From contig NZ_JACGWX010000001.1 of the NCBI RefSeq assembly GCF_014137945.1, forward strand, positions 310,001-374,000: a stretch of 64,000 nt of DNA, given 5' to 3'. Below the pieces are notes generated by a model. That model searched no databases. It was given only the letters and a program-made list of their open reading frames with translations, and was not told the DNA's origin. Below, piece by piece: positions 13,600 through 17,771 of the stretch. This DNA comes from Microcella alkalica. GTDB lineage: Bacteria; Actinomycetota; Actinomycetes; Actinomycetales; Microbacteriaceae. The translations under genes and the position numbers were made by a program. Position 1 is the first letter of the stretch; each line of letters begins with the position of its first letter.

Positions 13600-15039
13600 A
13601 TGAGCGACCTTGTCACCCTCGGCCAGCGCATCCGTCACTTCCGCTCGGCCACCGGGCTCACCCTCGACCAGCTGGGCGAGCTCGTTGGCGTCGCAGGTAG
13701 CCAGCTCTCCCTCATGGAGAACGGTCGCCGCGAGCCGCGCATCACCCTGCTCACGGCGATCGCCGACGCGCTCGGCGTCGCGCTCTCGGATCTCCTGGAG
13801 GAGACGCCGCCCTCCCATCGCGCGGCGCTCGAGATCGAGCTCGAGCGGGCGCAGCGCTCGGCCCTCTACGCATCGCTCGGCCTTCCCGCCGTGCGCGCAT
13901 CACGGTCGATGAGCGATGAGGTGCTCGAGGCGCTCGTCGGCCTGCATCGCGAGCTCGTCGAGCGCGAGCGCCAGACGATCGCGACGCCGGAGGAGGCCCG
14001 CCGCGCCAACACCGAGCTGAGGCACCGCATGCGCACGCTCGACAACTACCTGCCGGACATCGAGGAGCTCGCGGAGCGCACGGTGCGCGACACGGGCCAC
14101 ACCACCGGAGCGCTCACGCACCGCGAGGTCGGCCTCATGGCGAAGAAGCTCGGCTTCGAGCTCGTGCACGTCGGCGACCTCCCGCATTCGGCGCGCTCGG
14201 TCATCGACCTCGAGAACGGCCGCATCTACCTCCCTCCCGCCTCCATCCCCGGCGGCCACGGCCTCCGCTCGATGGCCCTGCAGGCGATCGCGCACCGGCT
14301 CCTCAGCCACGAGGTGCCGAGCACCTATGCCGAGTTCCTCCGCCAGAGGCTCGAGATCAACTACTTCGCCGCAGCGTGCCTCATGCCCCGCGAGCAGTCG
14401 GTGGCCTTCCTCGCGCAGGCCAAGGCCGACCGCAACATCGCGGTCGAGGACTTCCGGGACGCCTTTGGCGTGACGCACGAGGCGGCCGCGCTGCGGCTGA
14501 CGAATCTCGCTACCTCGCACCTCGATCTCACGCTGCACTTCCTGCGCGTGGGCGACGACGGCGCCGTCTACAAGGCCTACGAGAACGATGGGCTCCGCCT
14601 GCCCGTCGACGTCACCGGCTCGGTCGAGGGTCAGCTCGTGTGCCGGCACTGGAGCGCCCGCGTCGCCTTCACGCGGACCAACAGGACGACCGAGTTCTAC
14701 CAGTACACAGACACTCCCGAGGGCACGTACTGGGAGTCGACGCAGACCGGCACGAGCGCGAGCGACGAGTTCTCGATAACCGTCGGCGTGCCGTTCGCGC
14801 AGTCGAAGTGGTTCCGCGGACGGGAGACGACCAACCGCAGCGTGTCGACCTGCCCCGACCCTGCCTGCTGCAGGCGGCCCTCCGGCGACCTCGCGAGCCG
14901 GTGGCGGGGCAAGGCGTGGACGAGCGCGAAGCTCCACGCGCACATCCTCTCGCCTCTGCCCAGCGGCACCTTCCCCGGCGTCGACGATCAGGAGCTCTAC
15001 CGCTTCCTCGAGACGCACGCCGAGCGCGTCGACGACTGA
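13600..15039 (+). CDS. ramB: RamB/ScfR-type XRE transcriptional regulator
   Basis: A 479-residue regulator. Residues about 9-64 are an XRE helix-turn-helix (LTLDQLGELVGVAGSQLSLMENG). A central IrrE/ImmA-like domain carries HRLLSHEVPSTYAEFLRQRL and NYFAAACLMP, and the C-terminal third has a Cys-rich short-chain-fatty-acid regulator domain (STCPDPACCRRP). In Corynebacterium glutamicum, RamB represses acetate and glyoxylate-cycle genes. Its position divergent to pckG suggests control of the C3/C4 node here. No Shine-Dalgarno is present and the start seems leaderless. The symbol rests on domain architecture and context. Confidence 0.85.
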   Translation: MSDLVTLGQRIRHFRSATGLTLDQLGELVGVAGSQLSLMENGRREPRITLLTAIADALGVALSDLLEETPPSHRAALEIELERAQRSALYASLGLPAVRASRSMSDEVLEALVGLHRELVERERQTIATPEEARRANTELRHRMRTLDNYLPDIEELAERTVRDTGHTTGALTHREVGLMAKKLGFELVHVGDLPHSARSVIDLENGRIYLPPASIPGGHGLRSMALQAIAHRLLSHEVPSTYAEFLRQRLEINYFAAACLMPREQSVAFLAQAKADRNIAVEDFRDAFGVTHEAAALRLTNLATSHLDLTLHFLRVGDDGAVYKAYENDGLRLPVDVTGSVEGQLVCRHWSARVAFTRTNRTTEFYQYTDTPEGTYWESTQTGTSASDEFSITVGVPFAQSKWFRGRETTNRSVSTCPDPACCRRPSGDLASRWRGKAWTSAKLHAHILSPLPSGTFPGVDDQELYRFLETHAERVDD

Positions 15040-15060
15040 GCTCAGAGTCGGCGGGCGCCG

Positions 15061-16281
15061 TCAGCGCTCGAGAGTCGGGGCGGACGTCACGCCCTGCGCC
15101 GCGTCGGCGGCGCCCTTGGGAAGACGGCGGACGGACGCGCGCCGACGGCGCCGCAGCGTCATCGAGCGCATCTCGTCCATCTTCCCGAAGCACAGGAGGC
15201 GGTCCTCCGCCTGCAGATCCTGCCGAGCGCGAGGGTTGGGGATGACGGTCGTTCCGCGATTCAGGGTCAGCACCGTGATGTCGCGATCGAGGATGCCCGA
15301 CTCGCCGAGGGTCTTGCCGACGATGTCAGCACCGGCGTGCACGACGAGCTCCGCGACGCCGTAGCCCGTCGACACGGCGAGCCTCTGGCGCACGTCGATG
15401 TCCGGGAACGCGACCTCGTGCGCGATGTAGTCGATGATCGCGCCGGCGACGTCGAGCGTCGTCGCCCGTTCGATGCCCTCGAGGCCGGGGGAGGAGTTGA
15501 CTTCCATGACGAGGGGTCCGTCGTTGCCCTCCAGCATGTCGACGCCCGCGACGCGCAGCCCCATGATCTGCGCGGATCGAACGGCCGCGCGCTCGTACTC
15601 CGGAGTCAGCGACACCGCCTCGACCGACCCGCCGCGGTGGACGTTCGATCGGAACTCGTCGCCCTCGGCCGTGCGTCGCATGGCCGCGACGACGCGGTCA
15701 CCGACGACGAGGGCGCGGATGTCGCGCCCTCGGCTCTCGGAGATGAACTGCTGGATGAGGACGTTCTGGTTCGTCGAGTGCAGCGTCTCGATGATGGCCT
15801 CGGCGACCTTCGCCTGGGGGGCGAGGATCACGCCGATGCCCTGCGTGCCCTCGAGGAGCTTGATGACGACGGGAGCACCACCGACGCGCTCGATCGCGGG
15901 GCGCACGTCGGCGCGGTTGCGCACGAACGCGGTCGCGGGCATCCCGATGCCGTGTCGGCTGAGGATCTGCGTGGCCCGCAGCTTGTCGCGGGCGTTGCTG
16001 ATTCCGTTGGAGGTGTTGGGCGTGAAGACGTCCATCTGCTCGAACTGGCGCACGACGGCCGTGCCGAAGTAGGTGATCGAATTGCCGATGCGCGGCAGAA
16101 TCGCGTCGTACGTCGACAGCGGGCGGCCGCGGTAGTTCAGGTCGGGCTCCGGCCCCGTGAGGTCGACGGCGAAGCGGAGAGTGTTGAGGACCTTCACGCG
16201 GTGGCCGCGCTGCTCGGCGGCGGCGCGGAGCCGCTGCGTCGAATACGAGTGCGGGGCACGCGAGAGGATGGCGATTTTCAT
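15061..16281 (-). CDS. rimK: RimK-type glutamate ligase fused to an RCK_C (TrkA-C) domain
   Basis: A 406-residue ATP-grasp ligase. The N-terminal MKIAILSRAPHSYSTQRL, ATP-binding VIKLLEGTQGIGVILA and the metal-binding end VMEVNSSPGLEGIE are characteristic of RimK, which adds glutamates to the C-terminus of ribosomal protein S6. After residue about 300 a second domain follows: AELVVHAGADIVGKTLGESG ... NRGTTVIPNPRARQDLQAEDRLLCFG, a clear RCK_C/TrkA-C fold normally found in K+ channel regulators, where it binds small ligands. A basic tail RRRRRASVRR ends the protein. ATG at 16281 begins the conserved fold. It is divergent from the RimB-like gene with only 25 bases between starts. Confidence 0.88.
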   Translation of the reverse strand: MKIAILSRAPHSYSTQRLRAAAEQRGHRVKVLNTLRFAVDLTGPEPDLNYRGRPLSTYDAILPRIGNSITYFGTAVVRQFEQMDVFTPNTSNGISNARDKLRATQILSRHGIGMPATAFVRNRADVRPAIERVGGAPVVIKLLEGTQGIGVILAPQAKVAEAIIETLHSTNQNVLIQQFISESRGRDIRALVVGDRVVAAMRRTAEGDEFRSNVHRGGSVEAVSLTPEYERAAVRSAQIMGLRVAGVDMLEGNDGPLVMEVNSSPGLEGIERATTLDVAGAIIDYIAHEVAFPDIDVRQRLAVSTGYGVAELVVHAGADIVGKTLGESGILDRDITVLTLNRGTTVIPNPRARQDLQAEDRLLCFGKMDEMRSMTLRRRRRASVRRLPKGAADAAQGVTSAPTLER

Positions 16282-16306
16282 GGAGCGCCCCTGACAAGAT
16301 GAGGGT

Positions 16307-16783
16307 GTGACGGAGTCCGCCCATTCAATCACCATCGTCGGATGGCGAGAGTGGATCGCCCTGCCCGGCGCCGGCATCCCCTGGATCAAGGCGAAGCTCG
16401 ATACGGGAGCCCGCACGTCCTCGGTGCACGCCTACGACGTCGAGCTCGTCGGCGAGGGCGATGACGAGCGGGTGCGATTCCGGATCCGCCCCTGGCAGGA
16501 GTCCGCCGACGACGCCGTGGTCGTCGAGTGCCCCGTGCACGATCGGCGGAGCGTGCGCAGCTCCTCCGGGCACGTGGAGGAGCGGCTCGTCGTCCTCATG
16601 GACATCGCGATCATGGGCCGGCCCGTGACGACCGAGGTCACGCTCAGCAATCGCGACACGATGGGATTCAGGATGCTCATCGGCCGTCAGGCGCTGCGCC
16701 ACGGCTTCGTGGTCGACTCGGCCCGGTCGTTCCTCGGCGGCCGCGCGCCCAGAGAGGTGCGCCGCGCCAACCGCGGTCGCTGA
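16307..16783 (+). CDS. RimB-like retropepsin-type aspartic peptidase (PF05618)
   Basis: A 158-residue protein of the family once called ATP-dependent zinc protease, now seen as retropepsin-like. The active-site Asp is D32 in KLDTGARTSSVHA, and the second half has EVTLSNRDTMGFRMLIGRQAL, the flap and C-terminal features of the fold. In Pseudomonas and E. coli such RimB proteins process glutamylated S6 made by RimK, so the divergent rimK here is strong context. GTG start with CAAGAT six bases upstream. A tRNA gene follows on the opposite strand. Confidence 0.85.
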   Translation: MTESAHSITIVGWREWIALPGAGIPWIKAKLDTGARTSSVHAYDVELVGEGDDERVRFRIRPWQESADDAVVVECPVHDRRSVRSSSGHVEERLVVLMDIAIMGRPVTTEVTLSNRDTMGFRMLIGRQALRHGFVVDSARSFLGGRAPREVRRANRGR

Positions 16784-16807
16784 CCGCCGAACAGAAGAGA
16801 TTGCTCG

Positions 16808-16880
16808 CGCCCCCGACAGGATTCGAACCTGCGGCCCTCAGTACCGGAAACTGATGCTCTATCCCCTGAGCTACGGAGGC
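16808..16880 (-). tRNA. tRNA-Arg (anticodon CCG)
   Basis: 73 nt on the minus strand. The 7-bp acceptor pairs GCCTCCG with CGGGGGC (one G-T), the anticodon stem TCAGT/ACTGA encloses the loop TTCCGGT giving anticodon CCG (reads CGG), and the T arm is GCAGG-TTCGAAT-CCTGT. CCA is not encoded. It lies about 2 kb from argS. Confidence 0.96.
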
Positions 16881-16934
16881 GAGAGTCAGCCTAGCGGGTT
16901 CCCCGCGGTGGTCGCGCCGTGCCAGCATGTGCCC

Positions 16935-17771
16935 ATGACGCCGGTGACGGTCCGCACCGCGCTCGTCCGCGAGGTCGGATGCGCGGTCGACGGGGTGCTC
17001 GGAGAGCCCGCGGCGCTCGTGCTGGCGATCGCCGTCGCCGACGGGGAGGGGCTGTCGCGATCGGAGCGCCTCCGCGTCGCGGTCGATGGCCGCGCGCTCG
17101 ACGTGGCCGAGCATCCCGGGCCCGTCGGGACCCGATGGCACACGGTCGACGCGCCCGCGGGGGTGCTCCGAGTCGAGTACGAGGCGATGGTTCGCGGGCG
17201 TGCTCGGCCGGCGACCGTGACGCCGCTCGAGCGGATACTCGACGTGCGCCCGAGCCGCTTCGTGCAGAGCGACATCCTTCCCGCGCTCGTTGACAGCGAG
17301 GTCGTGCGGGCCTTCGCCGATCTTCCGCCGCTCGACCGCCTCGGAGCGGTCAGGGAGGCGGTGAGCGGCGCTCTGGAGTACTCCTGGGGCTCCACGCGGC
17401 CGACCGACGGCCTCGCCGAGCCGCTCGAGGCGGGGGCGGGCGTGTGCCGTGACTTCGCGCATGTCGTCGCGGGTCTGCTGCGCGCGACCGACCTGCCGGC
17501 GCGCGTCGTGTCCGTCTACGCGCCCGGCCTCGATCCCATGGACTTCCACGCAGCCGTCGAGGTCGCGGTCGGCGATGAGTGGCTGCTCGTGGATGCGACC
17601 GGCCGAGCGCCGAGGAGGACGATGGTTCGCATCGCGACGGGGCGGGATGCCGCGGACACCGCGTTCCTCGCGAGCGACGGCTCGGCACTCGCCTTGACCG
17701 CTGTGCGGGTGCGGGCCGAGGCGAACGACCCGTCGCCGGAGCGGCCCTCCGAGCTCGTCGCGCTCGGCTAG
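16935..17771 (+). CDS. Transglutaminase-like cysteine peptidase family protein
   Basis: A 278-residue transglutaminase-like protein with an N-terminal beta domain (about 1-110) and the catalytic core: Cys171 in GVCRDFAH, His in MDFHAAVEV, and Asp in WLLVDAT. Members of this soluble bacterial group act as proteases or amidases more often than as cross-linkers. ATG at 16935 matches family starts; an upstream in-frame ATG at 16854 lies inside the tRNA. Its TAG stop lies inside the GCTAGG target of the adjacent IS remnant, and before insertion the same CTAG would also have ended the convergent lipoprotein gene. Confidence 0.87.
   Translation: MTPVTVRTALVREVGCAVDGVLGEPAALVLAIAVADGEGLSRSERLRVAVDGRALDVAEHPGPVGTRWHTVDAPAGVLRVEYEAMVRGRARPATVTPLERILDVRPSRFVQSDILPALVDSEVVRAFADLPPLDRLGAVREAVSGALEYSWGSTRPTDGLAEPLEAGAGVCRDFAHVVAGLLRATDLPARVVSVYAPGLDPMDFHAAVEVAVGDEWLLVDATGRAPRRTMVRIATGRDAADTAFLASDGSALALTAVRVRAEANDPSPERPSELVALG

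Follow-up and report, generated by a model that had tools for sequence, protein, structure and literature searches.

Glutamate ligation by RimK enzymes and the removal of the glutamate chains have been described for Pseudomonas and E. coli. The Pseudomonas RimABK system consists of the ligase RimK, the retropepsin RimB and the c-di-GMP phosphodiesterase RimA, encoded in an operon. According to the available part of one report (PMC11957791), Pseudomonas RimB also changes the activity of RimK; the pairing of rimK with rimB has already been published there, together with RimBK hybrids from Desulfotalea psychrophila and others, in which ligase and peptidase form one protein. The E. coli RimK protein, 300 aa long, has no RCK_C domain, and there is no peptidase gene among the neighbours of its gene.

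RCK_C (TrkA-C) domains are best known from potassium channels, and they pair as dimers. Proteins such as KtrA/KtrC, KhtT, BusR and MthK, which contain this domain, regulate K+ channels, antiporters or DNA binding. In this work we analyzed a 64,000-nucleotide stretch of DNA from Microcella alkalica (the window). Here a domain of the same fold, as judged by sequence profile and structure comparison, is instead part of an amino-acid ligase and does not conserve the c-di-AMP signature. The domain make-up of the two products of the locus, their active-site residues, the RCK_C fold, the conservation of the pair and the absence of a c-di-AMP synthase from the family sample were all computed here.

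No description of a RimK-RCK_C fusion was found in the literature searched, a body of text with most subscription papers outside it; within these bounds this agrees with the preliminary description, which was not aware of such a system in actinobacteria. In the text available, TrkA/RCK is not mentioned in PMC4741518, nor is TrkA in PMC10092738, PMC11957791 or PMC4431377. The combination may well be present already in Pfam-type architecture listings; its domain content is visible to any annotation pipeline, while the function is undescribed as far as searched.

Organization of the locus and identity of its products

The features of the locus are listed in Table 1. The preliminary description had read it as a complete RimK core joined to an RCK_C domain in one 406-residue protein, with a 158-residue PF05618 protein containing DTGA encoded 25 bp away on the opposite strand. 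Both readings were confirmed, the former by Pfam, profile matches and the predicted fold, the latter by Pfam and the coordinates.

Table 1. Positions in the window of the ligase and peptidase genes and of their parts
Feature	Position	Strand	Details and evidence
rimK-RCK_C ligase gene	15061..16281	-	406 aa, ATG at 16281
RimK catalytic core, residues 1-288 (Rimk_N + ATP-grasp)	15418..16281	-	Pfam; residues 1-287 aligned without gaps to solved RimK; residue census
Linker, residues 289-305, family FPxIDVRQRLxVST	15367..15417	-	mean pairwise identity 0.87, conserved as core
RCK_C / TrkA-C domain, residues 306-374	15160..15366	-	Pfam, profile matches, predicted fold
Conserved basic tail, residues 375-390	15112..15159	-	R/K run census, net charge
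Intergenic gap between two divergent start codons	16282..16306	.	25 bp
RimB-like retropepsin-type aspartic peptidase, PF05618	16307..16783	+	158 aa, GTG start
Active-site motif DTGA with D32 as presumed catalytic Asp	16400..16411	+	DTG kept in 78/78 relatives

The Pfam models PF18030 (Rimk_N) and PF08443 (RimK ATP-grasp) matched the ligase over their cut-offs. The same was found for two NCBIfam models, NF007764 (PRK10446, S6--L-glutamate ligase equivalog; 336.1 bits vs a cut-off of 331) and TIGR00768 (255.4 bits vs 143.4). The identity with E. coli RimK is about 50% over residues 1-286. Since residues 1-287 align without gaps to solved RimK, the numbering of the P. aeruginosa enzyme is valid for the window ligase. 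In the available part of PMC10092738, residues S7, R8, S14, R64, S68, R189 and N262 of P. aeruginosa RimK are described as poly-Glu contacts, and R211, H215 and R216 as shaping the active-site cleft. All ten residues are identical in 141 out of 141 aligned long forms (ligases with RCK_C), window included. It should be noted that the window occurs twice among these rows, that some genomes may come from two collections, and that one long form broken by a stop (L063) stands outside the 141, among nine short rows of which eight are true short RimK. Judged by its sequence, the ligase is a RimK with an extra domain and intact active-site residues, and the passed NF007764 cut-off and the ten invariant residues agree with the earlier claim of a complete RimK core.

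Pairwise identity among the long forms averages 0.85-0.87 for the core and 0.87 for the linker; it falls to 0.76 for the RCK_C domain, 0.70 for the basic tail and 0.18 for the last residues. The ATPase of Pseudomonas RimK rose strongly when K196, E284 and N294 were together changed to Ala (PMC10092738, available part). The fusion joint is located close to positions E284 and N294, and we infer that a domain attached there would be well placed to affect activity.

The RCK_C domain is real. Residues 309-374 match PF02080 (TrkA_C) with 31.8 bits (gathering cut-off 27), this part of the protein gave profile matches to KtrC, KtrA and KhtT, and its predicted structure (pLDDT 88.4) corresponds in fold to MthK, KtrA, KhtT and BusR. 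Thus the structural match to RCK_C, on which the preliminary description had made its proposal depend, was positive by Pfam, profiles and fold comparison alike. A model of the full-length ligase was too poor to use (mean pLDDT 54.3).

A run of at least four R/K residues follows residue 374 in 113 of the 141 long-form rows, and the median net charge of the tail is +6, with a range from -2 to +9. This conserved basic tail would suit a docking module, with the Arg-rich tail binding the ribosome or other RNA and bringing the ligase to its target. Such a role of the C-terminal part seems improbable to us, however, given the lower identity of the tail and especially of the last residues, the rows in which the net charge goes down to -2, and the fact that tail docking by itself does not need an RCK_C fold.

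Four NCBIfam retropepsin models were compared on the peptidase. The RimB model (NF052261) was the best of them with 89.6 bits; the RloA3 model gave 78.5 bits. The former value is far under the NF052261 cut-off of 200, and the protein is therefore named here RimB-like and not RimB.

Comparison with the described systems revealed that: (i) the window locus has in common with Pseudomonas RimABK the glutamate-site residues of RimK and a RimB-type PF05618 partner, but differs from it in the RCK_C domain and basic tail of the ligase, in the divergent instead of operon arrangement, in the peptidase score under the RimB equivalog cut-off, in the lack of rimA among the neighbours scanned, and in that 11 out of 16 genus genomes are without GGDEF; (ii) the window ligase resembles E. 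coli RimK in its core, while the E. coli protein stands without the additional domain and its gene without a neighbouring peptidase gene; (iii) the RimBK hybrids (PMC11957791, available part) are likewise RimK fusions in the same pathway, but there the peptidase is fused, whereas here a regulator-type domain is fused and the peptidase is separate.

The genes beside the pair, as identified by Pfam among the neighbours scanned, encode PEPCK, an HTH/M78 protein and a transglutaminase-like protein. The gene past the ligase (13600-15039, + strand) encodes an HTH protein with an IrrE/M78-like part, whose similarity to RamB is weak (39.2 bits, cut-off 700). On the other side, a tRNA-Arg(CCG) gene (16807-16880, - strand) is located 23 bp beyond the retropepsin gene, and downstream of both lies the gene for the transglutaminase-like protein PF01841 (16929-17771, + strand). 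A consensus scan of positions 14800-17000 revealed no sigma-70-like promoter.

Distribution of the fused ligase and its pairing with the peptidase

In a sample of 40 genomes of relatives, the ligase was present in all 24 genomes of the same genus (in one of them in two pieces and in another only to residue 361) and in one out of 15 other genomes of the order. The long form was found in 45 of the 150 genomes sampled from the window's family, Microbacteriaceae, representing 28 out of 85 genera. In the phylum sample (396 genomes), 54 genomes contained any RimK match at E 1e-20, and 22 of them had the long form by alignment reach, the one in G480 being partial; these 22 fall under eight family labels. 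For each genome, the phylum searches scored just the top-ranking candidate stretches, four in one search and up to nine in another, so that weak extra copies may escape. A contig scan revealed at least 558 confirmed relatives of the RCK_C part, of which the best 80 were kept. These 80 include Microcella, Agromyces, Agrococcus, Microbacterium and Curtobacterium, and also Nocardioides, Knoellia, Janibacter, Terrabacter, Intrasporangium and MAGs of Acidimicrobiia or Ilumatobacter. Thus, the fused form is widespread in Actinomycetota. On plasmids, 112 records had a RimK match and none of these covered 80% of the query; among the 25 matches listed, all stop at residue 286 or 292.

The core sequences of 32 long forms, eight short RimK and L063 were used to build a FastTree phylogeny rooted with E. 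coli RimK. All long forms fell into one clade with a support of 0.88, and its sole extra member was L063, itself the stop-broken long form. A single fusion event is the simple reading of this tree, and by sequence the fusion looks like one of single origin. In two genomes, G378 and G507, the long (RCK_C) match occurs together with a match to short RimK; as both are present in the same genome, the two forms may not be redundant.

An adjacent divergent peptidase gene accompanied the ligase in all 45 ligase-containing genomes of the family sample, with 24-123 bp between the matched stretches. The 105 family genomes without the ligase yielded one peptidase, a fragment in G108, and the association is significant by Fisher's test (p about 1e-37, kinship ignored). 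The G108 fragment (C25:72648-72827, query residues 55-114, no ligase match) is a possible relic of pair loss. Among the best 80 of the at least 558 relatives, 78 loci contained the divergent pair and the other two were cut by the contig end; the start-to-start gap in the 78 pairs was about 21-137 bp. In the phylum sample the peptidase was found in 22 out of 22 long-form genomes and in 13 of the 32 other genomes with a RimK match, and none of these 35 peptidases belonged to a genome without a RimK match. The co-occurrence of the ligase with PF05618, another point on which the preliminary description had staked its proposal, was therefore seen in every ligase-bearing family genome, every uncut locus (78/78) and every long-form genome of the phylum sample.

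Not every genome has the two genes in divergent orientation. In the 22 long-form genomes of the phylum the peptidase gene was adjacent and divergent in eight, near and on the same strand in five, and on another contig in nine, the last being only 35-51% identical to the window peptidase. Distances between ligase cores and between peptidases were correlated over 78 loci (Mantel r 0.75, p 0.001), a correlation to which shared ancestry contributes.

The tRNA-Arg(CCG) gene was found in 12 of 42 related loci scanned and was absent from the other 30. It lies beside the pair in nine loci and about 1-4 kb off in L168, L170 and L173, and all tRNA-bearing loci belong to Microcella, Yonghaparkia, Salinibacterium, one Microbacterium MAG or actinobacterial MAGs. 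Thus the pair seems to be located at different chromosomal sites in different genera.

Many relatives have a further gene at or near that of the peptidase. Its product contains the AstE/AspA catalytic domain PF24827 (three examples scored 130-137 bits) and stays far under the cut-off of every curated equivalog. In total, tblastn detected this gene in 40 out of 153 loci (e.g., L175:3652-4608, - strand). Among the best 80 of the at least 558 relatives, it is located directly past the peptidase gene in 24 loci and about 2-5 kb off in six more, one of these being a 38-residue match at the locus edge; the remaining ten are other loci, three of them with short RimK (L067, L072, L073). Its hosts are Nocardioides, Knoellia, Agrococcus, Acidimicrobiia and the short-RimK loci. 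Neighbour genes were called with a GC-position gene finder in 11 loci, as high-GC shadow ORFs swamp an all-ORF BLAST. This putative hydrolase is possibly a third member of the module. In the window genome nothing matched it at E 1e-15, and a close copy (80%, adjoining the peptidase) was seen in one out of 150 family genomes, G088; the core system here therefore consists of two genes.

Ligand and role of the RCK_C domain

The preliminary description had favoured c-di-AMP as the ligand, a proposal that the comparison of genomes did not support. The DAC domain (PF02457) was found in none of the 150 family genomes, the window's own included, while 11 out of 14 control genomes were positive; it was also absent from all 16 genus genomes. 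Although six of nine genomes from other families of the order contain it, c-di-AMP signalling seems to be missing from this family. The published signature of c-di-AMP-binding RCK_C domains, (I/L)(I/L)X2DX1RX5N(I/L)(I/L) (PMC10117811, available part), points in the same direction: its D, R and N correspond to G329, L331 and T336 of the window ligase, position 329 is a conserved G and position 331 is variable. None of 140 long forms fits the signature strictly and none of 141 rows fits it loosely. The strict motif also misses the KtrC, KhtT and B. subtilis KtrA stretches, so that the DAC result weighs more. Sensing of c-di-AMP as in KtrA, KhtT and BusR is thus a very improbable explanation, even though the RCK_C model matches the c-di-AMP-bound structures of KhtT and KtrA in fold and two Streptomyces RCK_C proteins bind c-di-AMP; four of the six Streptomyces RCK_C domains do not (both from the available part of PMC10117811). 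For this family we regard c-di-AMP as an unlikely ligand of RCK_C.

Control by c-di-GMP as a general rule was not supported either. The ligase is present in all 16 genus genomes, but GGDEF in five of them, one of which is the window genome, and no rimA was detected among the window neighbours scanned. On these counts c-di-GMP does not look like a general controller. Of the switchable glutamylation system that had been proposed, the RCK_C domain, the intact ligase residues and the pairing with a RimB-like peptidase are supported, and the c-di-AMP ligand is not.

With moderate confidence we regard the two gene products as an antagonistic pair of glutamyl ligase and peptidase, in which the built-in RCK_C dimer sets the assembly or activity of the ligase, with a ligand or with none. 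The ligase would add an alpha-linked glutamate chain to a protein C-terminus or make it as free poly-alpha-glutamate, and the RimB-like retropepsin would cut such chains. Because RCK_C domains pair as dimers, the domain would most likely set the oligomeric state of the ligase and also tune the ATPase/ligase activity, probably through a small molecule or ion bound in the cleft of the dimer. The regulatory role of RCK_C, its putative ligand and the target in the cell are inferred. Against this explanation count the peptidase score of 89.6 bits vs the RimB cut-off of 200, the unclear S6 tails (see below), the non-universal divergence of the genes and the G108 fragment.

The RCK_C domain may also be purely structural. 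As a dimerization scaffold only, it would have no ligand and would fix the ligase as a higher-order assembly, an explanation that we regard as tentative. Consistent with it are the missing polar contacts of the c-di-AMP signature, the absence of DAC from the family sample, the absence of GGDEF from 11 of 16 genus genomes and the tetrameric state that published structures already show for RimK (PMC10092738, available part). The invariant RCK_C residues P348-N349-P350 and R342 are an indirect argument against a scaffold only. BusR has a Pro179-Gly180-Pro181 loop at its c-di-AMP pocket (PMC8517857, available part), and the P348-N349-P350 loop with R342 may sit where this BusR loop does, matched by eye with no alignment. 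A pocket for another ligand is possible.

Target of the ligase and meaning of the fusion

The C-termini of S6 were compared between the 45 ligase-bearing genomes of the family sample and 45 of its 105 genomes that lack the ligase. After incomplete tails were dropped (six with and one without RimK), 39 and 44 genomes, respectively, were left. S6 ends in Glu/Asp in 18 out of 39 genomes with the pair vs 13 out of 44 without it (p 0.17), the mean acidity of the last ten residues is 1.33 and 1.34, respectively, and none of the compared family genomes has a Glu-rich S6 tail. The S6 of the window genome ends in a single Glu. Covariation of the S6 tail as a proof of the target thus gave no clear signal, and on these sequences S6 as the ligase target is neither supported nor excluded.

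The same figures would agree with a main product in the form of free poly-alpha-glutamate (e.g., a counter-ion or nitrogen store) instead of modified S6, the more so as Pseudomonas RimB stimulates the synthesis of free poly-Glu by RimK (available part of PMC11957791). Nevertheless, E. coli-type RimK modifies S6 according to the same part of that report, the window genome's own S6 ends in Glu, and a lack of covariation does not exclude S6. We regard free poly-alpha-glutamate as a serious though less probable candidate for the main product; it is compatible with the antagonistic ligase/peptidase pair preferred above.

Studies of RimK glutamylation exist for E. coli and Pseudomonas; in the latter, control relies on a separate enzyme and c-di-GMP. 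A fused regulator with an opposing peptidase would offer a simpler, purifiable two-protein system for direct tests of the control of glutamate-chain length, and it would provide an example of an amino-acid ligase under the control of an RCK_C domain. More speculatively, it can be hypothesized that the locus represents a glutamylation switch widespread in actinobacteria, with the ligase acting as its own sensor and its RCK_C dimer reading an ion or metabolite other than a cyclic dinucleotide (e.g., K+/Na+, Ca2+ or a nucleotide) and setting the building of glutamate chains against their trimming. If this is true, the ion or osmotic state of the cell would be linked to protein tails or to free poly-glutamate.
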